Of a stretch of 62,214 nt of DNA, positions 2,125 to 20,410 are shown in pieces. The notes beneath the pieces were generated by a model. The model did no database searches and had not been told where the DNA came from. It saw only the letters and a list, made by a program, of their open reading frames with translations. The stretch lies in contig LXYH01000058.1 of assembly GCA_001650895.1 (NCBI GenBank), positions 1-62,214 on the forward strand, given 5' to 3'. Position numbers and translations under genes: made by a program. Origin of the DNA: Rhodobacteraceae bacterium EhC02 (GTDB taxonomy: Bacteria > Pseudomonadota > Alphaproteobacteria > Rhodobacterales > Rhodobacteraceae). How positions within the stretch are numbered: position 1 is the stretch's first letter; each line of letters begins with the position of its first letter.

Positions 2125-2135
2125 TTTAAAAACAG

Positions 2136-6294: not shown

Positions 6295-6298
6295 CGCG

Positions 6299-6778
6299 TC
6301 AGCCTCCGAAATGCAGGACGCAGACCAGCGTGAACAGGCGGCGCGCGGTATCGGTATCGATCACCGCCTTGCCCTCCAGCCGTTCCTGCAGGATACGCGC
6401 GCCTTCATTGTGGATACCACGCCGCGCCATGTCGATCGTCTCGATCTGGCTGGGCGGCATGTTCTTGACCGCATCGAAATAGCTTTCGCAGATGGCCCAG
6501 TAATCCTTGACCACCTGGCGGAACGGACTCAGCGACAGGTGGAATTCGGCCGCCTTTTCGCCCGCCTCCGTGCTGATGTCGAAGACAAGGCGCTTCTCGC
6601 GGATCGCAAGGCCGACACGATAGGGGCCGGCGGGGGCCACCCTGTCATCGCGGGCGGGAAGTTCGAAGGAATTGTCTTCCAGCAGGTCGAACATGGCCAC
6701 CTTGCGCTCCTGCTCGATCTCGGGGGTCGGCGGCGGCAGGTTTGAATCGTCAAGTTCGATGTCGCAGATACGTGTCAT
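6299..6778 (-). CDS. UPF0262 family protein
   Basis: The 159-residue protein matches the UPF0262 family by its start MTRICDIELDD and the core RVGLAIREKRLVFDIS, LSPFRQVVKDYWAICESYFDAVK and ARRLFTLVCVLHFGG. The biochemical function is unknown. It is conserved after hisD in Rhodobacterales as far as I recall. I chose the ATG at 6778; the 29 upstream in-frame residues look like non-coding translation. It is probably in one operon with hisD upstream and the phosphatase downstream. Confidence 0.88.
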   Translation of the reverse strand: MTRICDIELDDSNLPPPTPEIEQERKVAMFDLLEDNSFELPARDDRVAPAGPYRVGLAIREKRLVFDISTEAGEKAAEFHLSLSPFRQVVKDYWAICESYFDAVKNMPPSQIETIDMARRGIHNEGARILQERLEGKAVIDTDTARRLFTLVCVLHFGG

Positions 6779-6895
6779 GGGCAAGGTCCTGTTCCTGCCC
6801 CTGACTAGCGCAGGCCGCGCCCTGGCACAATCGGGCATCTGCGGGATGTCGCTGCGTCGCAGCAAAACCGCATCACATCCCGACCGGTGCCAGGA

Positions 6896-8197
6896 TCACT
6901 CGTTCAAACGGTTCAGCCGCGCCCGCACACTCAGACCATGCGCCTCAAGGCTTTCCGAAATGGCCAGCGTCTCGGCGGCAGGTCCGATCGCGCGCAGCGC
7001 CGCCGGGGTCATCCGCGCCAGCGTGGTGCGCTTGACGAAATCCATGACCGACAGACCGCTTGAAAACCGGGCCGAGCGCGCAGTGGGCAGGACATGGTTC
7101 GGCCCGCCCACATAGTCGCCAATCGCCTCGGGCGTCCAGGCGCCCAGGAAAATCGCGCCCGCATGGGTGATCTTCGCCGACAGTGCGTCCGCATCGGCCA
7201 CGCACAGTTCCAGATGCTCGGGCGCGATCCGGTTCGACAGCGCCGCCGCCACATCCAGGTCAGGCACGGTGATGATGGCGCCATAGTCGCGCCAGCTTGG
7301 CCCCGCGATCGCGCGCCGCTCCAGCGATGCCAGGTTGCGCTCGACCGCCGCCGCCACAGCCTTTGCCATGGCCGGGCTGTCGGTGATCAGGATGCTTTGG
7401 GCGCTTTCGTCATGTTCGGCCTGTGACAGCAGGTCCAGCGCGATCCAGTCGGGATCATTGTCCTGGTCCGCGATCACCAGGATCTCGGACGGACCCGCGA
7501 TCATGTCGATGCCCACCTTGCCGAAGACCCGCCGCTTGGCCGCCGCCACATAGGCATTGCCGGGGCCGGTGATCTTGTCCACGGGCGGGATGGTTTCTGT
7601 CCCATAGGCCAGCGCCGCCACCGCCTGCGCGCCGCCGATGCGATAGATCTCGTCCACCCCTGCAATTCGCGCCGCCAGCAGCACCAGCGGATTGGCCACC
7701 CCGTCGGGCGTCGGCACCACGATGGCCAGCCGCTCCACCCCCGCCACCTTGGCGGGGATCGCGTTCATCAGCACCGATGAGGGGTAGGAGGCCAGCCCCC
7801 CCGGCACGTAAAGTCCCGCCGCCGAGACCGGCGTCCAGCGCCAGCCCAGCATCGCACCTTCGGGATCGGTCCAGCTGTGATCCTGCGGCATCTGGCGCAG
7901 GTGGTAGGCGCGGATGCGTTCCGCCGCCAGTTCCAGTGCGGCGCGCTCATGGTCGGGCACCGACGCCACCAGCGCCTCCACCTCGGCTTCGGAAAACCGC
8001 AAGGTTTCGGGCGTCAACTCCAGCCGGTCGAACCGCGCGGTCAGCTCGATCAGCGCCGCATCGCCGCGCGCGCGCACATCGGCGATGATGCCGGCGACGA
8101 CATCGTCCACATCGACGCTATCCTCGCGCTTGGCACCCAGCAGGGCGGCAAAGGCGGTTTCGAAATCGGGGTCGGTGGCATTCAGAAATACGGGCAT
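6896..8197 (-). CDS. hisD: Histidinol dehydrogenase
   Basis: The 433-residue protein is a full-length HisD, which oxidises L-histidinol to L-histidine with two NAD+. Family landmarks are GLYVPGG near residue 128, the signature IDMIAGPSEILVIAD, LSQAEHDE, and the catalytic Glu-His in RIAPEHLELCV. The ATG is preceded by GGAGG (TGGAGGGACC). It lies within the murA-DUF2948-hisD-UPF0262 block, away from other histidine biosynthesis genes. Confidence 0.97.
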   Translation of the reverse strand: MPVFLNATDPDFETAFAALLGAKREDSVDVDDVVAGIIADVRARGDAALIELTARFDRLELTPETLRFSEAEVEALVASVPDHERAALELAAERIRAYHLRQMPQDHSWTDPEGAMLGWRWTPVSAAGLYVPGGLASYPSSVLMNAIPAKVAGVERLAIVVPTPDGVANPLVLLAARIAGVDEIYRIGGAQAVAALAYGTETIPPVDKITGPGNAYVAAAKRRVFGKVGIDMIAGPSEILVIADQDNDPDWIALDLLSQAEHDESAQSILITDSPAMAKAVAAAVERNLASLERRAIAGPSWRDYGAIITVPDLDVAAALSNRIAPEHLELCVADADALSAKITHAGAIFLGAWTPEAIGDYVGGPNHVLPTARSARFSSGLSVMDFVKRTTLARMTPAALRAIGPAAETLAISESLEAHGLSVRARLNRLNE

Positions 8198-8276
8198 GGT
8201 CCCTCCAGGCTCTGGGGCGGGACATAGCTTTGCGCGCCCACCGGCTCAACCCCCTGACACAAACAAGCGCGCCCCG

Positions 8277-8311
8277 CTTCTTCTTGCCGCAAATATCCCC
8301 GCCGGAGGCGC
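8277..8311. repeat. Possible dispersed intergenic repeat
   Basis: The hisD-DUF2948 gap (8198-8335) contains CTTCTTGCCGCAAATATCC followed by CCGCCGGAGGCG. I remember near-identical intergenic sequences from many Rhodobacteraceae genomes, but only one copy is present in this window, so its repeat nature rests on memory. Confidence 0.35.
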
Positions 8312-8335
8312 ACCCCTCCACCGGGCGTTCCCGCC

Positions 8336-8812
8336 TCAGATATCGTGCCCCGGCATCTTGCGTGACGGGGCCACATAGGGGCGCGTGACATCCTTCAGCG
8401 CGACCTCCAGCGCCTCGACGCGCAGACGGATCGCGCCGTCGCCCGCCAGGATCAGGTCCAGTTCGCCCGCGGCATCGTCCCCCGGATGCCATTCCAGCGA
8501 CAAGAGCGACAGCACCAGGTCGGGATCGCGCCGGTCCACCCCGTTCGAGGCGACGCCCAGAACGTTTTCCACCACCAGCAGCGATTGCACGCGCTCGACG
8601 GGGCGACCGCGCTTTTTCGCGGCCTCCACATCTTCCCAGCGAAACCGGTTCAGCAGCAGGCCGAAGCGATGCTGCCCCGGACGCCATGTCATTTCCGTCG
8701 CGGGAAAGACCGCATCCTGCGCCAGCGCTGAAATCACCTTGAGGTCTTCGGCCTCGATCGCGCCCAGGTTCAGCGGTGTTTCACGCGCATCCTCGAACCT
8801 GGCGTCGGTCAT
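8336..8812 (-). CDS. DUF2948 family protein
   Basis: The 158-residue protein fits DUF2948: [28 protein letters not shown] at residues 14-41, [14 protein letters not shown] near 48, and the final [23 protein letters not shown]. The function is unknown; the protein appears cytoplasmic with no signal peptide. Its ATG overlaps the murA stop by four bases, so it is translationally coupled to cell-wall synthesis. Confidence 0.88.
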
Positions 8813-10077
8813 CGGCCCGATACCCGCTCGATCCGCGCGCCGACCGCGCCCAGCTTTTCCTCGACCCGCTCATAGCCGCGGTCCAGGTGGTAGACGCGGT
8901 TCACGATGGTTTCACCCTCGGCCGCCAGCCCCGCCAGGATCAGCGAGACCGATGCCCGCAGATCCGTCGCCATGACGGGCGCGCCCTTCAGGCGGTCCAC
9001 GCCCGTGACCCTGGCCGTGCCGCCATGCACATCGATCTTGGCCCCCATGCGCATCAGCTCGGGCGCATGCATGAACCGGTTTTCGAAGATCTTTTCCTCA
9101 AGCACCGACACGCCCTCGGCGGTGCAGAGCAGCGCCATCATCTGCGCCTGCAGGTCGGTGGGAAAGCCCGGGAAGGGTTCCGTCGTCACATCCACGGCCC
9201 GCACACGGCCGTTCCCGCGGGTCACCTTCAGGCCCAGCGCCGTTTCCTCGATGCCGATGCCCGCCGCATCCAGCTTTTCGCAAAAGGCGCCGACAAGGTC
9301 GATCCGCCCGCCCAGCAATTCCACCTCGCCACCGCAGATCGCGGGGGCCAGCATGTAGGTGCCCAGTTCGATCCGGTCCGTCACCACCGGATGAGTGGCC
9401 CCATGCAGGCGGTCAACGCCCTGGATTGTGATGGTCGATGTCCCCTCGCCTTCGATCTGGGCACCCATCTTGCGCAGGCATTGCGCCAGATCCACGATCT
9501 CGGGCTCGCGCGCGGCATTCTTCAGAACGGTCGTGCCCTTGGCCAGCGTCGCGGCCATCAGCGCGTTTTCCGTGGCCCCCACCGACACGAAGGGGAAATC
9601 GACAATCCCGCCCTTCAGCCCGCCGGGTGCCTTGGCATGCACATAGCCTTCGCGCAGGTCCAGTTCTGCCCCCATCGCCTCCAACGCCTTCAGATGCAGA
9701 TCGACAGGCCGCGCGCCGATGGCGCAGCCCCCCGGCAACGACACGACCGCATGGCCGTCGCGCGCCAGCATCGGCCCCAGCACCAGGATCGAGGCGCGCA
9801 TCTTGCGCACGATGTCGTAATCGGCGGTGTGGTTGTGAATGTCATGGCTGGACATCGCCAGCACCTTGCCATCCTGCATCGAGGTGACCTCGGCCCCCAG
9901 CGACTGCAGCAGCTGCGTCATGGTGCGGATGTCCGACAGGCGCGGCGCATTGGTCAGCGTCAGCGGCTCTTCCGACAGAAGCGTCGCCGGCATCAGGGTC
10001 AGGCAGGCATTCTTGGCGCCGGCGATCGGGATCTGCCCTTTCAAGGGGCCATTGCCCGTCACGATGATCGAATCCAT
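8809..10077 (-). CDS. murA: UDP-N-acetylglucosamine 1-carboxyvinyltransferase MurA
   Basis: The 422-residue enzyme transfers enolpyruvate from PEP to UDP-GlcNAc, the first committed step of peptidoglycan synthesis. The N terminus [24 protein letters not shown] carries the conserved lysine of the AKNA motif (K22). The catalytic, fosfomycin-targeted cysteine is C118 in PGGCAIG, so no resistance-type Cys-to-Asp change is present. The open frame begins 16 codons earlier, but the ATG at 10077 gives the family N terminus. It follows a 58-aa gene by 13 bases. Confidence 0.97.
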
Positions 10078-10090
10078 TAGCCTGCCCTTT

Positions 10091-10267
10091 TCACTCGTTC
10101 TGTTGGTCTTGCCCCGGCGCATCATCCCCGGCCGCCGGCTGCTGTGCCGCCCGCGCCCGTGCCTGTGCCTTGCGCCGTGCCATATTGGCCTTGAGCGCGG
10201 CCTTCAACCGCTCTTCGCGCGTCCCGCCCTTCGCAGGCGATGTCTTGCCGGGGTTTCTCCGCTCCAT
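10091..10267 (-). CDS. Small basic hypothetical protein upstream of murA
   Basis: A 58-codon frame begins with ATG at 10265-10267, preceded by AGGAAGG, and stops with TGA at 10091-10093. It encodes a lysine/arginine/alanine-rich protein ([10 protein letters not shown] start, [20 protein letters not shown] core). The sharply charged helical core, the good ribosome site and the 13-base spacing to murA argue for a real gene; I recall similar short proteins before murA in Rhodobacterales. The function is unknown. No signal peptide or membrane segment is visible. Confidence 0.78.
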
Positions 10268-10380
10268 TTTGCCTTCCTACAGCACGGCGCAAATTGCGTC
10301 CAGATTGCGCTTGCACCCTGCGGAATTTGAGTCTAATCACCCGCCCACGGTCAAGGGCGCGCCCCTCCGACCAGACGGAT

Positions 10381-10455
10381 GCTGTGGTAGCTCAGTGGCA
10401 GAGCACTCCCTTGGTAAGGGAGAGGTCGAGAGTTCAATCCTCTCTCACAGCACCA
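10381..10455 (+). tRNA. tRNA-Thr (GGT)
   Basis: Full cloverleaf: acceptor stem GCTGTGG pairing with TCACAGC with one G-T pair, D-arm GCTCAGTGGCAGAGC, anticodon stem CTCCC/GGGAG around TTGGTAA (anticodon GGT), T-loop TTCAATC, discriminator A and encoded CCA. It is 75 nt long. It sits at the edge of the accessory segment that follows. Confidence 0.96.
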
Positions 10456-10668
10456 TCAAAATTGCGTAACATACCGAAGCTCAAACACCTTTCTTGCGTG
10501 CTCGATTTTCAATCCCCCTCGCAATCCACCTGCCGAACCCTCAGATCAAAATGCGACCATGGATCTGCTTCCCTGCCTTGCATTTGGGATGTTGATACGG
10601 GAGCCTGTCCGATAAATGCTTTGAAGGGACGCGGAATGCTTGATCACCCATTTTCGGTTCTTGTGTAG
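10456..10668. other. Gene-free junction after tRNA-Thr
   Basis: No supported gene. The base composition drops relative to the left flank, and the stretch ends at an IS3-type terminal sequence. I looked for a duplicated tRNA-Thr 3' end (an attachment-site copy) further right in the window and did not see one. Confidence 0.4.
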
Positions 10669-10745
10669 TAGCCCCCTGAAAGTAGTCCACCAACTGGGAT
10701 AGTTTTGTCCCACAAATTGGAGGATCAGCGATGGCTGGGAAACTA
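10669..10745 (+). mobile_element. Left-end remnant of an IS3-family element
   Basis: The stretch with GCCCCCTGAAAGTAGTCC, then CCACCAACTGGGATAGT and an ATGGCTGG start at 10731, closely resembles the left end of the IS3 element at 16751-16830 (same CCACCAACTGGGATAGT and ATGGCTGG at matching spacing). Only the terminal repeat, the leader and five codons of the first frame remain. The frame is then cut at the TA target of the IS5 element starting at 10746. Confidence 0.75.
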
Positions 10746-11595
10746 GGCTCCAGACTCATTGATGATCAAAGCCAGAACAAGACGGTTGCGGCGAGAGCGA
10801 TGGCTGAGAGGAAGACCTTCGGGCATCTGTCGTAGCGAGTGGCAACCCGGCGCCAGTCCTTCAGGCGACCAAACATAATTTCGATCCTGTTACGGCGTTT
10901 GTATCGACCCTTGTCGTATTTGACGGGCTTTGTTCGTGATTTTCGGCCAGGGATGCACGCCTTTATGCCCTTGTTTTGCAAGCCTTCACGGAACCAGTCG
11001 GCATCATAACCTCTGTCGGCCAGAAGCCATTGCGCAGGTGGAAGGCTGTTCAGCAATGCCGCTGAACCAGTATAATCGCTTGTCTCGCCTGCGGTCATGA
11101 AGAAGCTAATCGGGCGGCCGTTTTCATCAGTGACGGCATGCAATTTGGTGTTCATGCCGCCCTTGGTTCGGCCAATCAGACGACCGCGCCCCCCTTTTTC
11201 ACCCCAAGGCTTGAAGCTGTGCGGTGTGCTTTGAGATAGGTCGCGTCGATCATCACAGTCTTTGGAACTGCCCCCTCGGAGGCCAACCCTTCCATGATCC
11301 GCGCAAAGACGCCCATGTCGCCCCACCGCTTCCATCGGTTGTAGAGGGTCTTCGCTGGCCCGTACTCCTTCGGTGCGTCGGACCACCGCAAGCCATTGCG
11401 ATTGATGAATATTATTCCACTCAGAACGCGCCTATCATCCACGCGCGGCTTGCCATGGCTCTTTGGAAAGAACGGCCGAAGCCGCGCCATTTGTTCGTCC
11501 GTCAGCCAGTAAAGATTGCTCATAATGCCCCCAAAATTTGGGAGTGTGAATCATGCAAGCCTGACAGCCTCAAGCGGATTAATGGGTCTGGAGCC
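10746..11595 (-). mobile_element. IS5-family (IS427-type) insertion sequence, complete
   Basis: The 850-bp element is bounded by 15-bp inverted repeats, GGCTCCAGACTCATT at the left and GGCTCCAGACCCATT at the right (read inward), with one mismatch. Both ends are flanked by the dinucleotide TA (10744-10745 and 11596-11597), the target duplication typical of the IS427 group. It carries one transposase split over two frames on the minus strand and has inserted into an older IS3 remnant. Confidence 0.92.
10766..11523 (-). CDS. IS5-family transposase (two frames joined by -1 frameshift)
   Basis: The first frame (11176-11523, 115 residues) has the N-terminal helix-turn-helix region, MSNLYWLTDEQMARLRPFFP, and the first catalytic Asp in MIDATYLKAH. 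The second frame, open from 11386 to 10766 but meaningful from about 11199, has the second Asp in LLADRGYDAD and the Glu in RIEIMFGRLKDWRRVATRYD. The DDE triad is therefore complete. On the coding strand a run of five A and six G (11189-11199) lies where the frames must join, so programmed -1 slippage is expected, as known for IS427-type elements. The element looks intact and potentially active. Confidence 0.92.
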
Positions 11596-11740
11596 TAAAG
11601 GTGGCTGAATGCCTTAGTCATTTCATTCGTCAAATGGGAGGATGACAGACTCACGTTGTTGGCAATGCTGATGGCGTCAGATAGAATTCGATAACATTAG
11701 CTTTTGAGCTGTCAAAAAATCGGAAAAATTTGAGATGTAA

Positions 11741-11772
11741 TGAGCGAGCCCCCTTTAATGGGACCTCGCTCA
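11741..11772 (-). terminator. Probable terminator of the AT-rich operon
   Basis: Perfect 8-bp arms TGAGCGAG (11741-11748) and CTCGCTCA (11765-11772) enclose a loop that can extend the stem by a few G-C pairs. Read on the minus strand the hairpin begins 28 bases after the last gene of the operon and is followed by a T-rich tract containing a run of five T after about 20 bases. Confidence 0.6.
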
Positions 11773-11800
11773 CCTTTACTCATTAATAGCCTTGCGGGAA

Positions 11801-12130
11801 TTAAGTGAGCGGTGTAGCCCCCGTTTCCATGCGGATTATTTTTCCATCTTTGAGCATGCAAACCAGCATCACGGCTTCTTTGGTATCATCGGGGTAGGAC
11901 ATGAAATCATGAGAAACCAAAATCTCATCATTTTCATAAACACAACGAGATGCATCGTTCACAAACTTTGGGTTCCCCATCATACCAACGACCATCGATG
12001 CCCATTCATCTTTTGTGAATTTGTTACCTGATTTATGAAATACAATTTCTGCATCTTCATGAATAAGTGCAACATAACCCTCGACATCCCGGTCATCCAT
12101 GACTTTTGTTAGTTTCTGGTATAACGACAT
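11801..12130 (-). CDS. SnoaL/NTF2-like small protein (island operon, last gene)
   Basis: The 109-residue protein reads as NTF2-like: MSLYQKLTKVMDDRDVEGYVALIHEDAEIVFH (residues 1-32) is the usual first helices and strand, and the C-terminal strands CMLKDGKIIRMETG match the fold's end. Members are small isomerases, hydrolases or binding proteins; the ligand is unknown. The ATG at 12130 follows a G-rich leader and lies two bases after the cupin gene stop. The open frame extends 21 codons upstream into the cupin gene, which I exclude. The gene is AT-rich; 12001-12060 contains only 18 G/C in 60 bases. Confidence 0.78.
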   Translation of the reverse strand: MSLYQKLTKVMDDRDVEGYVALIHEDAEIVFHKSGNKFTKDEWASMVVGMMGNPKFVNDASRCVYENDEILVSHDFMSYPDDTKEAVMLVCMLKDGKIIRMETGATPLT

Positions 12131-12132
12131 TT

Positions 12133-12480
12133 CTATTCCCCCCATGCTCCGGCAAACTCGTACACGACCGCTCTTTTTCCACCGACGCACCATGCGTCAT
12201 GATTTGGCGAAATCGCATATGCATCACCAGCAGAATATGTGGCCTCCGAGCCATCGTCGCAAACACAATGAATGGTGCCTTCAACGATGATACCAGTGTG
12301 CGTTGCTTGGCAGCTATGCGTACCCACAACTGGTTTGATGTCCTTCGACCATTTCCACTCTGGTGCGAGTGTGAGCTTCATCACACGCTGACCGAGAACG
12401 TTAACAGCCTCCATACGTGCATTTGGCATATCCTTTGATTCATCGGCTTGAGTTGCGAAGCTTTTTACTTCAATTGGCAT
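12133..12480 (-). CDS. Cupin-domain protein (island operon)
   Basis: The 115-residue protein looks like a single small cupin barrel: GTHSCQATHTGIIVEGTIHCVCDDGSEATYSAGDAYAISPNHDAWCVG has the two-motif pattern with candidate metal ligands H and H in the first motif and H in SPNHDAW. Such proteins bind metal and act as oxygenases, isomerases or sensors; activity is not determined. I chose ATG 12480, preceded by AAGGAAA. It is separated from the DUF4242 gene by 87 bases and followed after two bases by the SnoaL-like gene. Confidence 0.8.
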   Translation of the reverse strand: MPIEVKSFATQADESKDMPNARMEAVNVLGQRVMKLTLAPEWKWSKDIKPVVGTHSCQATHTGIIVEGTIHCVCDDGSEATYSAGDAYAISPNHDAWCVGGKRAVVYEFAGAWGE

Positions 12481-12567
12481 TGTAGATTTCCTTTTCGGGG
12501 GCATTTTGATCCTGTTGAAACAGTCTCGATCCCAACGTTAGTGTTATTCATTAGGTGAGTTTTAGAT

Positions 12568-12855
12568 TTAGCTAACAACAGAAGTGTTGTGCTTTATCAC
12601 AGTAGCAATTTCAGATATCTCACTGGCAGGAACACCCGATCTTTCAGAATGCTCTTTGATCAAATTTTCGCTATCCGAATTGTAAATACAAAAAATAGCA
12701 TCGCCAACAACATAGCTCTGCTCTTGCATAATGTTCTTCCCCTCGGAGCGCATCGCTTCCAGAACTTCTTCTGAGCCTTTGCCTGCATTGTTCAATTCAT
12801 GTTTCGGAATGCTTCCTGCGCCTTCCATTTCACGTCTAATTAGAAACTTTTTCAT
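12568..12855 (-). CDS. DUF4242-type small protein (island operon)
   Basis: The 95-residue protein fits DUF4242, a small ferredoxin-like fold: MKKFLIRREMEGAGSIPKHELNNAGKGSEEVL, then IMQEQSYVVGDAIFCIYNSDSENLIKEHSERSGVPASEISEI. One relative, SCO4226 of Streptomyces, is reported to bind nickel; whether this one does is unknown. The ATG at 12855 follows an AAAGAGAA leader. The product has no signal peptide, unlike the exported proteins of the same operon. Confidence 0.78.
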   Translation of the reverse strand: MKKFLIRREMEGAGSIPKHELNNAGKGSEEVLEAMRSEGKNIMQEQSYVVGDAIFCIYNSDSENLIKEHSERSGVPASEISEIATVIKHNTSVVS

Positions 12856-12938
12856 GGGATTCTCTTTCAAGTATGATAGTTGTGTGTTGTTGACCATCCC
12901 CGGTTACAGACATGGTAATTGGTTCAAGCATTGGCCTA

Positions 12939-13310
12939 TTATAACGTCTCTATAACCTCGCCGTTTATAACCAACACTTCGCCGTACTTTGCCATAATTT
13001 CGAAGAAACCGGGGGCATCAGGCCAGGACCCAGCAGCATCGAGATGCTGACCAATCCCTTCTGGGCGTACGTAAACTTCGTTTATTGAAAAAAGTACGTT
13101 TCCAGTGATCCCATCGTCAGGGTTTGCAAAATTTACCAGCTCATCAGATTTTGAAACATAGTAGTGAACTAATTGAATCTTGCTATCATCATAACTGTGA
13201 TTATCACGCATCCACTTTGCATGCGTTTTGATTTCAGCATCTACATTGGATACGACATCCGCTGGGACTTTCACGTTTAAGTTGAAGGTCCTTTGTCCAT
13301 TTTTAACCAT
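12939..13310 (-). CDS. Unrecognised small protein, intact member of a paralogous pair
   Basis: The 123-residue protein is cytoplasmic, with no signal peptide. I do not recognise the family. It is clearly a paralogue of the gene at 13911-14285: both share HAKWMR-x2-HSYD-x-SKIQLVHYYVSK, then LFSINEVYV/LYSINEVYV, EGI-x-QH and the C terminus NGEVIETL. The alternating strands and helices and the length suggest a dimeric alpha/beta barrel, but this is a guess from pattern. The start is ATG 13310, with GGAAAG about a dozen bases upstream. A nonsense codon in the sister gene leaves this as the only unquestionably intact copy. Confidence 0.72.
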   Translation of the reverse strand: MVKNGQRTFNLNVKVPADVVSNVDAEIKTHAKWMRDNHSYDDSKIQLVHYYVSKSDELVNFANPDDGITGNVLFSINEVYVRPEGIGQHLDAAGSWPDAPGFFEIMAKYGEVLVINGEVIETL

Positions 13311-13381
13311 TTCAATTCTGCTTTCCGTATTATGTTGAACTTAGTTGTCGGGTGAAAGTTTCTACACTCATTGGTGTGATC

Positions 13382-13855
13382 TCAATCGGCAGCGACTACG
13401 TGGTACATTTGCTGACCTGTACTCAGCATGCCTGTTACAGTCCCAACAAATTTCTGGCCGACATATGGCTCATACTTACCACTGCCAGCGGTTAGTGAAC
13501 CCACGTACTCAAGTTGTGGAGTGATCTCGCCAAAATAAATGGCCAAATCACCATCTGGATCCATCATACTACAAACGCCCACGCCTCCGAATGGCGCACC
13601 TTCAGCAGTCAGTGCTACTGTCTGATTGCATTCGGCCGTTACCAGTGTTGGGAAGCCTTCGGGCGCTTCTGACCAATCCCATAAATCGGTTGAGCTATTG
13701 ATTATGATCGATCCAGTTGTGCCTTCCATCATCTGAGAAGAAGACGGTGCGTTCGCAAGGCCTGCCATGTTCCAAAGTTGCGAGTGACCATCTGCGAGAA
13801 CAGCACTAGAGCTGCATACAAAGAGTGCCGCAACAATTTTAGTAATTTTGATCAT
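13382..13855 (-). CDS. Exported protein of unknown function (island operon)
   Basis: The 157-residue protein begins with a clear Sec signal peptide, MIKITKIVAALFVCSSSAVLA, with likely cleavage after LA-D at about residue 22. The mature part is rich in small residues and beta strands (GTTGSIIINSSTDLWDWSEAPEG; LEYVGSLTAGSGKYEPYVGQKFVGTVTGML). It has two Cys, in TAECNQ and GVGVCSM, that could form a disulfide. I do not recognise the family. AGGAACGAC precedes the ATG. With the diheme cytochrome it forms the periplasmic part of the operon. Confidence 0.72.
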   Translation of the reverse strand: MIKITKIVAALFVCSSSAVLADGHSQLWNMAGLANAPSSSQMMEGTTGSIIINSSTDLWDWSEAPEGFPTLVTAECNQTVALTAEGAPFGGVGVCSMMDPDGDLAIYFGEITPQLEYVGSLTAGSGKYEPYVGQKFVGTVTGMLSTGQQMYHVVAAD

Positions 13856-13910
13856 GTCGTTCGTTCCTATATTCCTAGATTTTCTCTATTTGGATCTGTT
13901 GCGCTGTGTC

Positions 13911-14285
13911 TTACAGCGTCTCAATGACCTCACCATTGGCGATCAGGACACTTCCAAACTCGGTGATCGTGCCGACAAAGGATTGAAAGTTTTTCCAGCT
14001 TTGTCCTGCAGCCATATGTTGATCTATGCCTTCAGCCATCACGTAGACTTCGTTGATGGAATAGAGAACTCGACCGGTTGTGCCTTGAGTTGGGTCAGCG
14101 ATGTTTACAAGCTCATGTGCTTTTGAGACATAGTAGTGCACAAGCTGTATCTTGCTTTCGTCATAACTATGGGCTTCACGCATCCACTTAGCATGATCGG
14201 ACAGGGAAGCTTCAACTTCGTCCACTGAATCCGCAGGTACGGATAGGGCGAAATTAAAGGTTCGTTATTGGAGTTGTACGTTCAT
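13911..14285 (-). pseudogene. Paralogue of 12939-13310 with an in-frame stop at codon 7
   Basis: Reading from the ATG at 14283-14285, which has AGGATAA upstream, gives MNVQLQ, a TAA stop at 14265-14267, and then RTFNFALSVPADSVDEVEASLSDHAKWM in the same frame, continuing to the normal C terminus NGEVIETL. The intact sister reads MVKNGQRTFNLNVKVPADVV at the same place, so the stop lies within the true gene. A GTG at 14225 could restart translation of 104 residues lacking about 20 N-terminal residues. It is therefore either a recent pseudogene, a gene with an alternative start, or a sequencing error. Everything after the stop is well conserved, so decay must be recent. Confidence 0.7.
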
Positions 14286-14319
14286 CTTGTTTATCCTAAA
14301 TTCTGGTGATTTTGAGACC

Positions 14320-14604
14320 TTAACTGCATGCAAAAACTTCACCTTCTTTCGCATCCAGCATAGTCATTGGTAGTTCCGTCGCTGCTTGAGAGCGGATGGC
14401 TGCGATTTTTTCCTTCGCTTGAGCGGCCGCCTCTGAATTAGTAAAGTGAGAAATAACTGATAGATTATTCTCTCCGGTGCGAACCATTTGTACTTCAGTA
14501 GCGCCAACACTCATGATCATTGGGACAAATTTACTCTGCCCAATCTCATCCATTTCAGTTGTCCATTCCTGCGTCGACCAGTTAGATATCATTATATAAG
14601 ACAC
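14320..14604 (-). CDS. Unrecognised small cytoplasmic protein (island operon)
   Basis: The 94-residue protein begins with GTG at 14604, preceded by AAGGAAAG at about six bases. The pattern MSYIMISNWSTQEWTTEMDEIG, then VGATEVQMVRTGENNLSVISHFTNSEAAAQAKEKIAAIRSQ, resembles a small ferredoxin-like dimeric alpha/beta barrel of the antibiotic-biosynthesis-monooxygenase kind. No diagnostic residues confirm it. It lies 27 bases after the cytochrome c gene, so it is probably co-transcribed. Confidence 0.68.
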   Translation of the reverse strand: MSYIMISNWSTQEWTTEMDEIGQSKFVPMIMSVGATEVQMVRTGENNLSVISHFTNSEAAAQAKEKIAAIRSQAATELPMTMLDAKEGEVFACS

Positions 14605-14631
14605 GTTCGCTTTCCTTGAATTTTAAAGGAT

Positions 14632-15483
14632 TTAACCGTTAGGGAGGGCAGGCAACGATCGGAGATACATGATCACTGCATCAAGATCGTTCTGGGTCAT
14701 TCGGGCAAAGTTGATGTATGGCATTGGTGGCATCATCGGTATGTCCCCTGGACGTACGCCCCCAGCAATCATGCCGATAAGTTCCGCGTCGGAGTATTCG
14801 GACAGACCGGTTGGTGTGATGTTGGGGGCGACTGAGACGCCCCAAGGGCCATGGAATTCGTAACCACCGGCCCCAAGATGTGTATCGAACATCGGTCCTT
14901 GAGGTCCGAATGTGGTGTGACATTCAATGCAATGTGCCACCGGACCAGCGAGGTATTCGCCGTATGCAACGGTCACACTGGGGGCTAGAGCTTCAACAGT
15001 GTCGATGGGCGGTCCATAAGAGTCTGGTAGTGGAATATTGTAGACGCTTTGTCCTGGATCATGCTCCACGGCTGGCACTTGCCGGAGGTACATGACGATG
15101 CTCATCAAATCATCATCCGATAGACCACGATACAGACCGATTGGCATCGGTGGTCCAATGACAGAGCCGTCTGGCCGCATACCCTCTCTAATAGCGCGAG
15201 CGAGTTCGGCGTCAGTCCACTCTGCTATCCGGCTTCCAGGTGTTATGTTCGAGGCCACAGCAGTGAACGCTGCATTTTGCTCGATGAGCATGCCACCAAG
15301 ATAGAGCGAAGGAATGGGGCCATCAGGACCTTGAGACGTGTGGCAGTTACCGCAGGCGGCTGGGCCTTCTACCAGATAGGTGCCTCGCTCTAGCGATGGT
15401 TCGGCACTGGCAAAATTTGCCATGTTCAGGGCTAAAACTCCGGTCAGGACCCCTATACGTGCCTTGTTATGATTATATCGCAT
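14632..15483 (-). CDS. Exported diheme c-type cytochrome (island operon, first gene)
   Basis: The 283-residue protein has an N-terminal signal peptide (hydrophobic core GVLTGVLALNMANFASA, cleavage near residue 27) and two cytochrome c domains: CGNCH at residues 44-48 and CIECH at residues 185-189. Candidate axial methionines lie in GPPMP (about 113) and MPPMPY near the C terminus. It resembles the small cytochrome subunits that take electrons from periplasmic dehydrogenases (alcohol or nicotinate dehydrogenase type). No partner dehydrogenase gene is present in the operon. GAGGT lies about nine bases before the ATG. It is the first gene of the leftward operon and is divergent from an HxlR regulator. 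Confidence 0.9.
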   Translation of the reverse strand: MRYNHNKARIGVLTGVLALNMANFASAEPSLERGTYLVEGPAACGNCHTSQGPDGPIPSLYLGGMLIEQNAAFTAVASNITPGSRIAEWTDAELARAIREGMRPDGSVIGPPMPIGLYRGLSDDDLMSIVMYLRQVPAVEHDPGQSVYNIPLPDSYGPPIDTVEALAPSVTVAYGEYLAGPVAHCIECHTTFGPQGPMFDTHLGAGGYEFHGPWGVSVAPNITPTGLSEYSDAELIGMIAGGVRPGDIPMMPPMPYINFARMTQNDLDAVIMYLRSLPALPNG

Positions 15484-15497
15484 CCGCAGCGTACCTC

Positions 15498-15513
15498 TAT
15501 GATCAACGTCATA
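15498..15513. promoter_or_regulatory. Candidate operator between cytochrome c gene and HxlR gene
   Basis: The 101-bp divergent gap contains the inverted repeat TATGA (15498-15502) and TCATA (15509-15513), six bases apart, 15 bases before the cytochrome start. It is the clearest dyad in the gap, so it is the best guess for an HxlR binding site. The arms are only five bases, so the call is weak. Confidence 0.35.
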
Positions 15514-15584
15514 AACATGCTTGCATCGGCTCCCATCGCGATCTAGTCTAAAGATTGAAGTGGTTTTCGAGAGAGGATGAAACG

Positions 15585-16046
15585 ATGCTTGATCAGTCCG
15601 TTGAACAAGAAATGTGTCCCATCGCGTTGGCTTCGTATCTATTTTGTGACAAGTGGATACCTATCATTATTAGAGACATCGCTCTTTTTGATCGACGCAC
15701 ATTCAATGATATGTTGAAAAACAACCCTGAAAATATTTCGTCAGGTTCTTTGTCGTCTCGCTTGCAGAGACTTCTCCATTTGCAGATGTTGGAAGTGACG
15801 GACCACAGCGCGCATTCTCAGAAAAAAATCTACAGCTTGACCGAATCTGGAGTTGGGTTTGTTCCCGTTGTTTTTAAGATGGCGTCTTGGGCTGCGGAGT
15901 TCCGAAATCCATCTCCAGTGGTGGTGGAAATGACTCAGCCATATATCGATGGCGACACTGATTCTATAAATTCATTTTTGAAAAATCTTCGAGATATTCA
16001 CATTCACAAAACCACCGTTCCTCAGCCGTTTTGGTGGAAAAGTTAA
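15585..16046 (+). CDS. HxlR-family transcriptional regulator of the island operon
   Basis: The 153-residue protein has the HxlR winged helix: EMCPIALASYLFCDKWIPIIIRDIALF, then FNDMLKNNPENISSGSLSSRLQRLLHLQMLEV and the wing KKIYSLTESGVGF. The Cys just before the first helix is conserved with the other two HxlR proteins of this window and could sense electrophiles. The ATG at 15585 follows GAGAGGATG at good spacing; the frame also reads from a TTG ten codons earlier without a ribosome site. It is divergent from the cytochrome-led operon and probably controls it. The gene is AT-rich like its neighbours. Confidence 0.87.
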   Translation: MLDQSVEQEMCPIALASYLFCDKWIPIIIRDIALFDRRTFNDMLKNNPENISSGSLSSRLQRLLHLQMLEVTDHSAHSQKKIYSLTESGVGFVPVVFKMASWAAEFRNPSPVVVEMTQPYIDGDTDSINSFLKNLRDIHIHKTTVPQPFWWKS

Positions 16047-16194
16047 AGGCGCTCATGTCGCGGAGTTTGTGCAAGCTTCTGGTGGCGCGATGGAGCTTTT
16101 GTGGATTTTTATTTCTTAAAGGCTTTGTAAATATCAGGTTCGTGGAAGTTTTGAAAACAACGACAGCGAAAATTTTGATCAGTATGTCGCACTG

Positions 16195-16283
16195 GGCTCC
16201 AGACTCATTGATGATCAAAGCCAGAACAAGACGGTTGCGGCGAGAGCGATGGCTGAGAGGAAGACCTTCGGGCATCTGTCGTA
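16195..16283 (-). mobile_element. Truncated copy of the IS5 element (terminal 89 bp)
   Basis: The 89 bases are identical to 10746-10834, the transposase 3' end and terminal repeat of the complete IS5 element, in the same orientation. Similarity then falls off (about 14 of the next 20 bases match) and is lost. The rest of the element is missing. The pair of direct repeats brackets 5.4 kb that contains the AT-rich operon. Confidence 0.9.
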
Positions 16284-16320
16284 CCGAACGGCAATCCTGC
16301 GCGCTGTTCGGGATGCCGCT

Positions 16321-16581
16321 TCATGTCGCCACCTCCGGTCCATGGATGCGGTGGCGTTCGACCTCGACGCGGGCAAGAAAGTCTTCTTCGGTTTCCTGAT
16401 CGCCCCGGTGCAGTGTCACACCCAGGAAACCTTTCATGCCCAGCACATAGGCAATCACAGGCTTGCCCTCGCCCGGCCCCTCAGGCGTAGGCGCAACTGA
16501 CCGGATGATCAGAACGGTTGGCCCTTCGTTGTGGCTTGGGGCTTTGTCCTCAAGCGACTTCAATCGTTGATGCAGCCTCAT
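16321..16581 (-). CDS. Hypothetical protein (possibly phage-related)
   Basis: The 86-residue protein starts with a coiled-coil-like MRLHQRLKSLEDKA and continues GPTVLIIRSVAPTPEGPGEGKPVIAYVLG, with the acidic segment ETEEDFLARVEVERHRIHG. I do not recognise it firmly; I have an impression of similar small proteins near phage or transposon genes in Rhodobacterales. Its ATG overlaps the stop of the preceding truncated gene by four bases. GC content is back to the host level here, so it is not part of the AT-rich operon. No signal peptide is visible. Confidence 0.55.
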   Translation of the reverse strand: MRLHQRLKSLEDKAPSHNEGPTVLIIRSVAPTPEGPGEGKPVIAYVLGMKGFLGVTLHRGDQETEEDFLARVEVERHRIHGPEVAT

Positions 16582-16750
16582 AGTGTCACCCCGCGACCAA
16601 CTGCTGCAGATAGAATGGCCTTCGCGGTTGCTACATCACCCCGCTCCCAAGCCATTGTCACTCGTTCTGCGGGGGAGGCGTCCAATCGGCCCTGAATATT
16701 GCCAGATGCGCGCAACCGCTCGCCAATGGAATTGAGATGGGCTAGTGGAG
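16578..16750 (-). pseudogene. 3' remnant of a hypothetical gene cut by the IS3 element
   Basis: From the IS3 left end, the minus strand reads PLAHLNSIGERLRASGNIQ, then GRLDASPAERVTMAWERGDVATAKAILSAAVGRGVTL, and stops. The open frame continues upstream only through the IS terminal repeat, so the native N terminus has been removed. The stop is translationally coupled (ATGA) to the 86-residue gene. The family is not recognised. Confidence 0.6.
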
Positions 16751-16813
16751 TGCCCCCACTGAAGTGGTCCACCAACTGGGATAGTATTATCCCGATTTCA
16801 GGAGGACCACGAG

Positions 16814-17091
16814 ATGGCTGGAAAGAGAGACAAGCCCGAAGAGATCGTGCTGAAGCTGCGGCAGGTTGAAGTCTGCAAGGACAGGGCAACTCGATCGCTG
16901 ATGCTGTTCGGCAGATCGGTGTAGCGCAGCAGACCTATTATCGATGGCGCAAAGAATATGGTGGCATGAGCCGTGATCAGTTGAAGCGGCTGAAGGAGTT
17001 GGAGACCGAGAATGCCCGGCTCAGGCGTGCCGTGTCGGACTTGACGCTGGACAAGATGATCCTGACCGAGGCCGCCCGGGGAAACTTCTGA
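16814..17091 (+). pseudogene. IS3 transposase orfA, frameshifted
   Basis: The frame starts MAGKRDKPEEIVLKLRQVEV and then loses register near 16872. A single missing base turns the expected reading (LQGQGNSIADAVRQIGVAQQ) into a frame that ends at a TAG about 16 codons later. After restoring the base, the normal helix-turn-helix and leucine-zipper region follows, TYYRWRKEYGGMSRDQLKRLKELE and then RLRRAVSDLTLDKMILTEAA, to TGA at 17089-17091. OrfA supplies DNA binding, so this copy is probably unable to transpose on its own. Confidence 0.8.
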
Positions 17092-17123
17092 GCCCTTCCC
17101 GCCGCCGTCAGTGCATAGATCAT

Positions 17124-17939
17124 GTGCGGCAGGCCCTTGGCGTGTCTGAGCGCCGGGCTTGCCGCACCCTCGGGCAGCATCGTTCCACGCAGCGCAAGGT
17201 TCCCTGTGGCCTGCCGGACGAAGAGCAACTGACCGATGACATCCTTGAGCTGGCGCGAGAGTTTGGGCGCTATGGATATCGCATGATCACCGGGATGCTG
17301 AACAACAGCGGCTGGCATGTGAACCATAAGAGGGTCGAACGGATCTGGCGGCAGGAGGGGCTGAAAGTCCCGCAAAAACAACCCAAGAAGGGACGGCTCT
17401 GGCTGAATGATGGGTCGTGCGTCCGGCTGCGGCCAGAACGCCCAAACCACGTTTGGTCCTATGACTTCGTCCAGGATCGAACCCACGACAGGCGGATCTT
17501 CCGTACCCTCAATATCATCGATGAGTTCACGAAGGAGGCCCTGGTCATCCGTGTAAAACGCAAGCTCAATTCAACCGACGTGGTCGACGCTCTGACTGAC
17601 TTGTTCATCTTGCGCGGCCCGCCCGCGTTTATAAGGTCCGACAATGGCGCGGAATTTATCGCCAAGAAGGTGCGCACCTGGATTGACGCGGTAGGCGCCA
17701 AGACGGCCTTCATCGCACCAGGATCTCCATGGGAGAACGGCTATTGCGAAAGCTTCAATGCCCGCTTCCGGGACGAGCTTCTGAACGGTGAGGTCTTCTT
17801 CTCGCTACGCGAGGCCCAGATTCTGATCGAGAAGTGGCGCCGCCACTACAACACAGTCAGACCGCACAGCGCTCTGGGATATCGTCCACCAGCACCCGAA
17901 AGCATCGTCCCGATAGACCAGAGACCGACCATGCACTAA
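17124..17939 (+). CDS. IS3-family transposase orfB (DDE integrase domain)
   Basis: The 271-residue frame carries the retroviral-integrase-like core: first Asp in WSYDFVQD, second in FIRSDNGAEF, and Glu in SPWENGYCESFNARFRDELL, with the terminal YNTVRPHSALGYRPPAPE. The frame is open further upstream through LSPSRRRQCIDH, overlapping the end of orfA in the -1 register. That is the usual arrangement for making an OrfAB fusion by frameshifting. The GTG at 17124 is therefore only a nominal start. The frame itself is intact. Confidence 0.88.
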   Translation: MRQALGVSERRACRTLGQHRSTQRKVPCGLPDEEQLTDDILELAREFGRYGYRMITGMLNNSGWHVNHKRVERIWRQEGLKVPQKQPKKGRLWLNDGSCVRLRPERPNHVWSYDFVQDRTHDRRIFRTLNIIDEFTKEALVIRVKRKLNSTDVVDALTDLFILRGPPAFIRSDNGAEFIAKKVRTWIDAVGAKTAFIAPGSPWENGYCESFNARFRDELLNGEVFFSLREAQILIEKWRRHYNTVRPHSALGYRPPAPESIVPIDQRPTMH

Positions 17940-17942
17940 CAT

Positions 17943-20345
17943 TCAAACTGGACCACTCAATGGGGGCAGACCAGCGGCGGCGAAAGCCTGAAGCGCGGCT
18001 TCCATCTCGACCAGCGTGTCGGCTGCTTCGATCCCGGCGACAAGGTCCACGGTATCCGATCCGTCAAGATCGCCGACCACGGGCAGTTCGGCCTCGAATG
18101 TTCCGGTATTGCCCGCAGGGTCCGTGGCTGCGATGACCATTGCTACGCTTCCGGTGCCCTCAAGGGCCAGAATATCCGCGAAGGGTACGCTGAACTGGAA
18201 ACCGCCCGCCTCGGTGGTGACAGCCTCGTAACTCCGGCTGCCAAGGGCAAGGGTTACCTGCGTACCCGCAGCGACGCCCGCGACAGAACCATCGATCAGC
18301 GCAGGCCCGCCCTCCAGCGCGGCCACCTCGGCCGCATCGATCCGGGCCGGCAAGGGATCGGACAGTGTGATGACCGGCGCGACAGTATCCAGCGTGAAGC
18401 TCAGCGGCGCAGAGGCTTGCGACACATTGCCGGCGGCATCGGTCTGGCGCACCTGCAGCGTGTTGGCCCCCTCTGCGGCGGTAAAGCTCGCGGCCCAGGT
18501 CGCGCCGACATCGGTCGAATAGCTGACGCTGGCCCCCGCCTCGACGCCGGTCAGGGTGACCGCGCCATTGGCGGTGATGCCCGCGCCGGTTCCGGTGTCG
18601 CTGACCAGCGCAACGGCCGGGGCGGCCGGGGCTGTGGCATCGACGCTTACCGTCAGCGCCGCCGAGGCAGACCCCAGCGGACCACCATCGACACTGGCGC
18701 GCGCCGAGATCTGCTGTGCACCGTCCGCCGGGACGTCCGCGAAGGTGACCGACCATGCACCAAGGCTGTTGACCTCTGCGGTTTCGACAAGATCACCGAA
18801 ACTGACCGAAACATCCGAACCGGCACGCCCGGTCCCCGAGATCGTGATCCCCGCAGCGGCGTCCGCGGCATTGACCGCCTCGGACGCGGTGGTGATCACC
18901 GGGCGCAGGGGCGTGCTGTCGGCGATGGTCTGCGCCACATCGACGGTCTCGCCCGCTTCCACCGCGTCGACGATCGCGCCCTGAACGGCGCCTTGCACCT
19001 GCTCGATATCCGCCAGATCACCACCTGCCCGCAGCGCATCGTTGACCTGCGTCAGCACCTGGGACAAGGCGGTGGCCTGCCCGGGCGCGACCGAGGCCCC
19101 CAGAACCGCGTCAAGCACCACGGGATCGGCAAGCGAGACCACGCCATCCGCATCCGCCCCGATCTGCTGGGCCAGCGCCGTGATGGCGGCTGCGGCATTG
19201 CCGCCCGCCGCCGTGGTGACGTTGATGATCGCGGCAAGCTGCGCCGCCGCCTGCAACTGTGTCAGGCTGCCGGCACCGCCCGCCTCGGCCAGAGCCACCG
19301 GGTCATTCGCCAGCAGATCCCCGTTCAGCCCGAGTGCCTGCGCGACCTGATCGGCCGCCTGCCCTGCCGTCAGCCCGGCATCGCTGCGCAACAGGCTATC
19401 GATCAGCGTCGTCAGGGGTGTGACGACCGATGCCCCATCAGGTGCGGTCAGGGTGCCGGTAAAGGGCTGGCCCGTCGACAGGTCGATCGGGCGCAGCGCG
19501 GCAAGCCCTGCATCCTGCGCAATGGCCGCGGCAGAGGGCGTGCCCGCCACAAGCCCGCCCTGCCCCGTCAGCAGGTTGACATCGAAGGCGCCGCTGGCGT
19601 CGGTGGTGGTATAGACCTCGCCACTGTCCCAGATGCCGTTTGCATTCAGGTCGCGGAACACGAAGGCATCGACAAGATAGCCGTCGATCACCGGAATCAT
19701 CTGGGCCGGAACCGGCCCCGGTGCGGGCGTCCCGGGCCCTGTCACCAGACCGGGGGCGGCAGGGGGCGGGCTGAGCATGGCACCACCACCGCCACCACTG
19801 CCGCCAGCGACAGCGGCGATCCCAAGGGCAAGTCCGCCACCCAGCGCCAGACCGGCCAGGTCCAGGCCGGCCGCGCCGCCTGCCCCGGCCATCAGATCCG
19901 CAATCACATCTTGCGAGATGATGATGCGGCCATCCGGCTGGACCGTGACCTGATCGGCCGGAACGCTCAGGGTGCTGCCGTCGTCGAAACGCAGAACCAC
20001 CGAGCCGTCGGCCTGCCTGCTGGCGCCGACCAGGCCGGGCAGGGATTGCACAAGGGACACCTCGCCCGCCGCCTGGGCCATCATGGGCAACAACAGCACC
20101 ATGCCGCCAAATCCCGCCGTGATGGCGGCGCGATTGCGCGCCACCCAATCGCGAAGGAACCGGCGACGGGCTGCGGGACCCGCCGGTACCGAGACCCGGT
20201 TCGCGGCGGAACATATCCCGTCCCGATCGCCTGTCCCGCCATCGTCCGTCATGCGGAACGCCCCGACCCAGGGCAAGACGGTCCCGCGATCCACGACAGC
20301 GTGAATGTCGCGTTCTGACCGGAAACTGGAAAAACTGATACCCAT
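17943..20345 (-). CDS. Large Ig-repeat surface protein, 3' end replaced by IS3
   Basis: The 800-residue reading frame has an N-terminal hydrophobic segment (GFGGMVLLLPMMAQAA, residues about 80-95). A region reading VVLRFDDGSTLSVPADQ and ending in RIIIS recalls BapA-type adhesin prefixes. Next come a Gly/Pro-rich linker, an SdrD-B-like segment (FVFRDLNANGIWDSGE, about 230-245) and repeated bacterial Ig-like domains from about residue 490 (ISGTGRAGSDVSVSFGD; LTGVEAGASVSYSTD; TDPAGNTGTF). The last eight residues and the stop come from the IS3 right end. A C-terminal secretion or anchoring domain, if there was one, is therefore lost. ATG 20345 (AAGG nine bases upstream) is preferred over a GTG two codons earlier. 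It is likely a non-functional, truncated type I-secreted adhesin. Confidence 0.78.
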   Translation of the reverse strand: MGISFSSFRSERDIHAVVDRGTVLPWVGAFRMTDDGGTGDRDGICSAANRVSVPAGPAARRRFLRDWVARNRAAITAGFGGMVLLLPMMAQAAGEVSLVQSLPGLVGASRQADGSVVLRFDDGSTLSVPADQVTVQPDGRIIISQDVIADLMAGAGGAAGLDLAGLALGGGLALGIAAVAGGSGGGGGAMLSPPPAAPGLVTGPGTPAPGPVPAQMIPVIDGYLVDAFVFRDLNANGIWDSGEVYTTTDASGAFDVNLLTGQGGLVAGTPSAAAIAQDAGLAALRPIDLSTGQPFTGTLTAPDGASVVTPLTTLIDSLLRSDAGLTAGQAADQVAQALGLNGDLLANDPVALAEAGGAGSLTQLQAAAQLAAIINVTTAAGGNAAAAITALAQQIGADADGVVSLADPVVLDAVLGASVAPGQATALSQVLTQVNDALRAGGDLADIEQVQGAVQGAIVDAVEAGETVDVAQTIADSTPLRPVITTASEAVNAADAAAGITISGTGRAGSDVSVSFGDLVETAEVNSLGAWSVTFADVPADGAQQISARASVDGGPLGSASAALTVSVDATAPAAPAVALVSDTGTGAGITANGAVTLTGVEAGASVSYSTDVGATWAASFTAAEGANTLQVRQTDAAGNVSQASAPLSFTLDTVAPVITLSDPLPARIDAAEVAALEGGPALIDGSVAGVAAGTQVTLALGSRSYEAVTTEAGGFQFSVPFADILALEGTGSVAMVIAATDPAGNTGTFEAELPVVGDLDGSDTVDLVAGIEAADTLVEMEAALQAFAAAGLPPLSGPV

Positions 20346-20410
20346 ATGCACTTACCTTGCTGCAGACAAACTGGACCGGGCCAAGGCTAGAGAGTGACCG
20401 GCGCCAACTC

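Follow-up and report, generated by a model that had tools for sequence, protein, structure and literature searches.

A gene module of an HxlR regulator and small predicted barrel proteins in an AT-rich block of Rhodobacteraceae bacterium EhC02

What holds together the small genes of an AT-rich block in the genome of Rhodobacteraceae bacterium EhC02, and on what compound might they act? The block (positions 11598-16194) lies in contig LXYH01000058.1 of assembly GCA_001650895.1, read here over 62,214 nucleotides (nt) that we call the window, and the list of open reading frames (ORFs) for the window contains all eight leftward frames, running from 15483 to 11801, and the divergent, rightward HxlR gene from 15585 that an earlier note on this DNA had described. 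That note took them for a mobile module that senses an electrophile or quinone-like compound through HxlR and handles it by electron transfer to the respiratory chain. We find that a core of genes for the HxlR regulator, a member of a paralogue family with the working name 'par', an exported protein predicted to form a barrel, a cupin and a SnoaL-like protein recurs in other genomes, and that the module is almost certainly real. Tentatively, we read it as a horizontally acquired, self-regulated module directed against, or converting, a presumed small reactive aromatic compound or quinone/quinone-methide electrophile. Three points go beyond the earlier note: an operator-like site, an exported protein that is probably dirigent-like, and a mosaic make-up. 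No description of this gene set appears in the titles and opening abstract lines of the open-licence PMC papers that our searches listed. Coordinates are collected in Table 1.

Genome contigs were scanned with the intact par copy, yielding eight close loci (59-87% identical), at which gene presence was scored by tblastn (E <= 1e-4). Besides the window, the core is complete at four of the eight: in a Piscirickettsiaceae metagenome-assembled genome (MAG; L007), in Loktanella sp. PT4BL (L008; genome G911), which also carries the cytochrome and p94 genes, in an Alphaproteobacteria MAG (L009), and in Rhodobacterales LSUCC0387 (L010; genome G469), where the par operon is physically separate; from their names we take several of the source organisms to be marine. 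In all four full loci a DUF3764-like gene occurs: L008 and L010 have it between the barrel and cupin genes, L007 and L009 immediately ahead of the cupin gene. The window instead has par copy B and a DUF4242 gene there, the latter present in one of the five complete modules. The cytochrome and p94 are confined to two of these five, the window and L008, and two plasmid-borne cytochrome homologues have annotated surroundings without the module. Electron transfer thus does not stand as the heart of the system: the cytochrome was rejected as a core component and is, on this distribution, accessory. In sequence it matches, over two stretches (the best at residues 26-140, E 2.9e-24), cytochrome subunits of membrane dehydrogenases, among them those of fructose and quinone-dependent alcohol dehydrogenases, but unlike these it has two haem motifs in 283 residues, and the block contains no dehydrogenase subunit.

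Nucleotide comparison among these loci indicates that the module is a mosaic, because its parts differ in their nearest relative: the stretch from barrel to HxlR (13389-16046) is 91.2% identical to the Loktanella locus over 2661 nt, a match that does not extend past the barrel gene; for the cupin-SnoaL part the longest match is in L010 (80.9%, 670 nt), the cupin alone being about as close in L008 and L009 (80-81%); and par copy B is nearest to L004 (81.6%, 374 nt). Composition sets the block apart from its surroundings, as had been noticed earlier from the 18 G/C in 12001-12060. Its GC content is 46.1% versus 65.0% for the window outside 10744-17990 and a minimum of 61.6% among 916 other segments of 4597 nt, and its composition-corrected tetranucleotide distance, a check that the earlier note had proposed, is 0.304 versus at most 0.199 among 93 other segments. 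In Loktanella, a 52-nt, 94% copy of the end of a tRNA-Phe gene lies at C3:751160, on the same strand as the tRNA at 775719 and 24.5 kb from it; the module lies between these repeats together with two phage-integrase genes. The parts read inside the repeats have 49-50% GC, the DNA beyond the tRNA 60%, and the 660 nt beyond the other repeat 54%, a less clear border. This copy likely resides on a tRNA-Phe island. Together with the conserved gene set and the DNA identity to Loktanella, the repeats and integrases argue that the module is horizontally acquired and mobile, as the earlier note had supposed. Because the Loktanella module lies between tRNA-Phe repeats, insertion sequence (IS) elements are evidently not its general vehicle. 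Carriage by phages or plasmids was rejected: par has no match in plasmids, phages or viral contigs and the barrel none in plasmids or viral contigs, while plasmid relatives of the cupin and HxlR (15 and 18 records) are distant, all below 60% identity. At L004, an integrase gene stands directly after tRNA-Ser and is followed by par, cupin and barrel genes (L004:4021-11479); no second tRNA-Ser copy was found there, and two related 128-residue proteins of this locus, terminase-small-subunit-like by eye, have no Pfam match.

The regulator scores above the Pfam HxlR cut-off (39.7 bits; cut-off 20.8), and YodB, to which it aligns at Met-Cys-Pro, is its sole solved relative at E <= 0.001 (E 3.8e-5). 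The N-terminal Cys in the Cys-Pro motif is kept in the HxlR of L007, L008, L009 and L010. Counted from the start positions used in this analysis, Cys occurs at 11 and 21 only in the window protein and at 12 only in those of L008 and L010; none of the three has a Cys near the C-terminus, where the resolving Cys of YodB lies. As related in passages of PMC10458429, C6 of YodB is S-alkylated by quinones and is joined by diamide to C101'. Because its Cys residues are at 11 and 21 and none is near the C-terminus, the window HxlR could be alkylated but could not form the C6-C101' disulfide. It resembles the regulators of the YodB/CatR regulons of Bacillus subtilis as an HxlR/DUF24-family protein with an N-terminal Cys, and differs from YodB, as do its relatives in L008 and L010, in having no C-terminal partner; the targets named for those regulons in the same passages (azoreductase, nitroreductase, thiol-dependent dioxygenases) are not seen here. 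The kinship with YodB and the kept Cys thus bear out the earlier proposal of electrophile or quinone sensing as far as the regulator goes; the electrophile itself we infer. Formaldehyde-type sensing was rejected: the B. subtilis HxlR formaldehyde sensor forms a Cys11-Lys13 crosslink (according to parts of PMC7835342), and the window protein (Cys-Pro-Ile) has no Lys two residues past the Cys. A second HxlR gene occurs in the window at 40310-40690 (Pfam E 8e-27), distant from the block.

Comparison of the HxlR upstream regions revealed a 21-nt motif, ATCTAGTCTANANNTTGAAGY, shared by the window, L008 (arms ACTTCAAT/ATTGAAGT) and L010, an operator-like sequence that we regard as a candidate operator of HxlR. 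L010 has a second site, ahead of its physically separate par operon and with one mismatch to the pattern used at that stage; when L010 was base-shuffled 20 times, the best match had 4 to 6 mismatches. Five whole genomes were then scanned at up to 3 mismatches, with the reversed motif as control. Mismatch-free sites number one in the window's own genome (G000), one in Loktanella and two in G469, all at the module and including the separate par operon of G469; no further site with up to 3 mismatches occurs in these three genomes, in which the reversed motif has 0, 1 and 7 sites (G000, G911 and G469, respectively). The genomes of L004 (G912) and L005 (G913) contain one and three sites, each with 3 mismatches, and 8 and 8 sites of the control. 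Exact matches to ATCTAGTCTANANNTTGAAGY in viral contigs number 8, and none of the stretches around them holds a module gene.

Structure prediction, which the earlier note had recommended for the unfamiliar proteins, yielded barrels for two of the families, although the exported one stays below the cut-off of its candidate Pfam family. For par, a model from a nine-sequence alignment (mean predicted local distance difference test, pLDDT, 80.9) returned 14 Foldseek matches in the PDB at E <= 0.001, to dimeric alpha+beta-barrel proteins; weaker matches include 4-methylmuconolactone methylisomerase and polyketide cyclases. The par paralogues are thus predicted to have the dimeric alpha+beta-barrel fold of antibiotic biosynthesis monooxygenases (ABM), but they differ from these in having no significant sequence match in Pfam, NCBIfam or PDB that would place them in the ABM family, and in a conserved signature of their own, H-A-x-W-M-R..H-S-Y-D..K-I-Q-L-V-H-Y-Y-V-S-K. 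Many His, Tyr, Trp, Asn and Glu residues are invariant, partly through the kinship of the nine aligned sequences (59-87% identical to the first). The early stop that had been noted in one paralogue was recovered when the par profile was read through copy A, which is probably inactive or N-terminally truncated. A par relative in G780 (L024:6854-7285) has an apparent signal peptide, judged by eye, from which par-type barrels may act in the periplasm too. Neither par copy, nor p94, nor the exported 157-residue protein has a significant match in Pfam, NCBIfam or PHROGs.

The exported protein, whose signal peptide was judged by eye, was modelled from five sequences as a barrel of eight strands (mean pLDDT 77.9, residues 1-28 below 50). 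Thirteen positions (M1, D57, P65, E66, P69, C76, C95, D99, G102, D103, G124, G126 and K127) are invariant in an alignment of seven barrels, which includes the window protein, extends down to 19% identity and omits a frame-split Loktanella copy. The model places C76 and C95 within strands 3 and 4, respectively, and G124 where strand 6 ends; in the G-S/T-G-K motif that follows this strand, both Gly and the Lys are kept in all seven. Of the 49 bacterial dirigent-like proteins (DIRL) surveyed in PMC9344732, 42 carry Cys in strands 3 and 4, and the survey also gives a conserved glycine motif where strand 6 ends; a quinone-methide-stabilising role has been proposed for dirigent proteins (parts of PMC7450108 and PMC9344732). 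Because these Cys and Gly hallmarks, like the signal peptide and the modelled fold, fit but the Pfam Dirigent cut-off is not reached, we call the exported protein probably dirigent-like, short of a filed member of the family. The setting also differs: the neighbours of DIRL genes in the passages of PMC9344732 are genes for terpene synthases, P450s and oxidoreductases rather than for HxlR, par, cupin and SnoaL proteins, and no open-licence PMC paper combines 'dirigent' and 'HxlR'. A search of PDB sequences with the barrel profile gave a chance antibody match only and was set aside. The Loktanella barrel gene (L008:6424-6895) is split over two frames, 97% and then 88% identical to the window protein, the split being either real or a sequencing error.

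Nei-Gojobori (NG86) ratios of non-synonymous to synonymous substitution (dN/dS) against relatives were computed for the cytochrome, par A, par B, cupin, SnoaL, p94 and exported genes, HxlR and DUF4242 not being included. They range from 0.03 to 0.26 for the first five; p94, with few changes, has 0.36, and the exported gene shows saturation of dS (proportions of synonymous and non-synonymous differences 0.77 and 0.16). Since the ratios are low where computed, the ORFs of the block are unlikely to be spurious. The terminator previously proposed for the operon is supported by a hairpin of -28.9 kcal/mol (z -6.5, none of 200 shuffles as good), which went unlisted in a scan for consensus terminators, probably for lack of a T-run directly after it. 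A promoter scan gave 6 sites versus 7.2 in shuffles.

The block had been described as lying between direct copies of IS5 sequence. The left copy is complete, with a 97% copy elsewhere in the genome, and the right one shares its orientation but is only a remnant. Because the latter amounts to about 108 nt of one end, the block is not an intact composite transposon, and such a transposon was rejected as the vehicle. Ends of an element that we presume to be IS3-type lie outside both IS4/5 copies (rve transposase at 17124-17936). Same-genus genomes match the window only as far as a tRNA-Thr gene; G907 (L041), the closest of them over this stretch, has about 9 kb at 68% GC after the tRNA, and homology resumes at window position 17979. 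Integration of the window island at the tRNA-Thr is not supported, as the tRNA end occurs in the window only once and G907 has those 9 kb after it. The same tRNA-Thr is, as indicated by G906, an integration site in this genus: there a 19-kb integrase-bearing segment, prophage-like by eye, lies between the tRNA and a 49-54-nt copy of its end (L040, approximately 273-19373). An adhesin-like gene beyond the block (17943-20351; Big_13 domain in the window copy) encodes 802 residues versus 1580 in G907 (L041:3055-7797), and the IS-flanked block occupies the place of the missing part and of other DNA (about 9 kb altogether). Judged by this single relative, the simplest reading has the block taking the place of local DNA and truncating the adhesin-like gene.

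Table 1. Features in and around the AT-rich block; positions are those of the window
Feature	Position	Strand	Remarks
tRNA-Thr	10381..10455	+	Same-genus conservation stops at its 3' end
IS4/5-family element, complete	10744..11597	-	20-nt inverted ends; two overlapping transposase frames (DUF4096, DDE)
Strong hairpin, likely terminator	11730..11790	-	Downstream of the operon's last gene
SnoaL/NTF2-like protein	11801..12130	-	Start as in relatives; Pfam SnoaL/DUF4440 below cut-off
Cupin, 115 residues from relatives' start	12133..12480	-	ORF open to 12504; Pfam match below cut-off
DUF4242 / SCO4226-like protein	12568..12855	-	Pfam above cut-off; DUF3764-like gene in this place in L008 and L010
par copy B, intact, 123 residues	12939..13310	-	Predicted dimeric alpha+beta-barrel protein
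Exported 157-residue protein	13382..13855	-	Eight-stranded barrel, probably dirigent-like (model and alignment)
par copy A, early in-frame TAA	13911..14282	-	par profile reads 13914-14282 with one TAA
p94, 94 residues	14320..14604	-	No family match; among compared loci only beside the cytochrome
Exported diheme cytochrome c, 283 residues	14632..15483	-	CGNCH at residue 44, CIECH at residue 185; Pfam above cut-off
Operator-like motif ATCTAGTCTANANNTTGAAGY, 21 nt	15541..15561	+	Between HxlR and operon; from comparing HxlR upstream regions
HxlR/DUF24 regulator	15585..16046	+	ATG start inferred from relatives; Cys-Pro-Ile at residue 11
IS remnant, 108 nt	16195..16302	-	One end of the left IS, 95% identical, same orientation

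From the gene set, the conserved operator-like site, the thiol-sensor family with its Cys, the predicted par fold, purifying selection on most genes and mobility, we infer how the module might work. HxlR would sit on the ATCTAGTCTANANNTTGAAGY motif, and an electrophile alkylating its Cys would free the operon. The exported dirigent-like barrel would take up the reactive compound in the periplasm and steer its cyclisation or coupling, and the cytosolic par, DUF4242, SnoaL and cupin proteins would isomerise, cyclise or oxidise the compound that enters the cell. In the window and in Loktanella only, an oxidation in the periplasm might feed electrons through the diheme cytochrome c into the respiratory chain. 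A bolder elaboration, which we consider improbable, makes of the set an 'oxidant plus dirigent' device: cytochrome c would accept electrons from a phenol undergoing oxidation in the periplasm, the barrel would hold the quinone methide or phenoxy radical so formed and guide it to cyclise or couple, the cytosolic barrels would finish the product and HxlR would report escaping electrophile, the whole travelling as an exchangeable mosaic on tRNA-linked islands. The p-cresol and pinoresinol flavocytochromes PchFC and PinAB likewise use a cytochrome c partner in phenol oxidation via quinone methides (in the parts of PMC12607616 that bear on this), but their flavoprotein subunit is absent from the block.

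The electrophile reading must be tempered by several results. Besides the cytochrome no redox enzyme is seen in the block, nor any transporter, and no substrate is evident. The signals to which HxlR proteins respond are varied. Three of the four sites found had served to build the motif, only the fourth being independent, and L007 and L009, whose HxlR is more distant (41-43%), lack the motif. Pfam Dirigent is below its cut-off in all seven barrel homologues scanned (best E 0.097; 12.8 of 29.1 bits), and the window protein has no Dirigent match at all. Among 414 fold matches of the barrel none reaches E <= 0.001: PloI4 chains lead, the best at E 0.04, and PyrI4 comes at rank 44 (E 0.59), with beta-galactosidases in between; PloI4 and PyrI4 are, we presume, allene-oxide-cyclase-like barrels, and neither a dirigent protein nor an allene oxide cyclase is named in the best 50 of the 414 titles.

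Distribution adds to these doubts, par being rare and not always within the module. In overlapping genome samples that count its own genome, it occurs in 1 of 198 genomes of the family (single-protein query), 1 of 7 of the genus (three of the other six under 85% complete), 3 of 390 of the order (one weak), 5 of 385 of the class (one weak) and 1 of 398 of the phylum. The incomplete close loci comprise L004 (par, barrel, cupin), L005 (par, cupin, another SnoaL type), L006 (par and a DUF3764-like gene on a 4-kb contig) and L011 (par alone, near the contig start), so that par stands without the barrel at three of the eight (L005, L006, L011). At the six distant par loci (L021-L025 and L027; L026 is the same place as L010, and the par of L025 was not re-found by single-sequence tblastn) the core is never complete, the sole further core gene being SnoaL in L021; the co-occurrence check suggested earlier thus succeeds among close relatives of par and fails among distant ones. 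The barrel occurs in 3 of 385 genomes of the class (own included), all three also with par and two of one genus. G857 and G780, small-genome class members of one genus, carry par and barrel at different loci. In favour of our reading, their 19-20% identical barrel adjoins a SnoaL gene and in G780 lies also near DUF3764-like, ABM, YdhR and another SnoaL gene. Many small genes surround par in L005 (Rhodobacteraceae AG-390-B07; L005:2908-12301); they include YdhR-family, cupin and SnoaL-like genes and one that weakly matches DUF6854, some of these names having been assigned by eye.

It is possible, if on present evidence unlikely, that the block is instead a catabolic or tailoring cassette whose small proteins perform the final steps in converting one particular, non-toxic metabolite (e.g., an algal polyketide, oxylipin or lignan-like phenol), the first steps being encoded elsewhere and HxlR sensing without alkylation. 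The resemblance of par, SnoaL and barrel to cyclases and isomerases of polyketide and aromatic pathways would suit such a role, as would the varying accessory genes of small-barrel families, but the regulator retains its thiol-sensor Cys, and a synthase, ring-cleaving dioxygenase, CoA ligase or transporter was seen neither in the window block nor in the 24.5-kb Loktanella stretch (ORFs by eye, most of the Loktanella ones without family search).

Doubtful to a greater degree is binding or buffering alone, in which the barrels would sequester a toxic lipophilic compound or a metal without catalysis. Dirigent and cupin barrels do bind ligands, and the DUF4242 protein belongs to a SCO4226-like family whose namesake binds nickel (parts of PMC4186839); yet DUF4242 is restricted to the window among the complete modules, its protein reaches 12.8 of 125 bits on the NCBIfam nickel-binder model, and the many invariant par residues, even if partly due to kinship, speak against buffering alone. 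Cargo of a mobile element defending against phages or competitors at tRNA hot spots is very improbable: the tRNA-linked island and nearby integrases would fit, but PADLOC gave no credible match (two at E ~0.01, to restriction/endonuclease models), neither phage records nor viral contigs contain a relative of par, and no relative of the barrel turned up in viral contigs. Least of all do we credit a decaying leftover, an IS-shuffled island non-functional in this strain. It would fit the early stop in par copy A, the reduction of the right IS to a remnant, the IS3-type ends on either side and the shortened adhesin-like gene, but the other seven operon ORFs and HxlR are open, dN/dS is low where computed, motif and hairpin are intact, and the broken par is matched by an intact second copy.

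The module is a compact, testable system that brings otherwise unnamed protein families together with a regulator, a candidate operator and candidate chemistry. The regulator and its 21-nt site offer a simple entry point; the inducer is likely the substrate or its reactive form. That substrate, once found, would assign a function to par, to the probable bacterial dirigent-like group and to the DUF3764-like genes.

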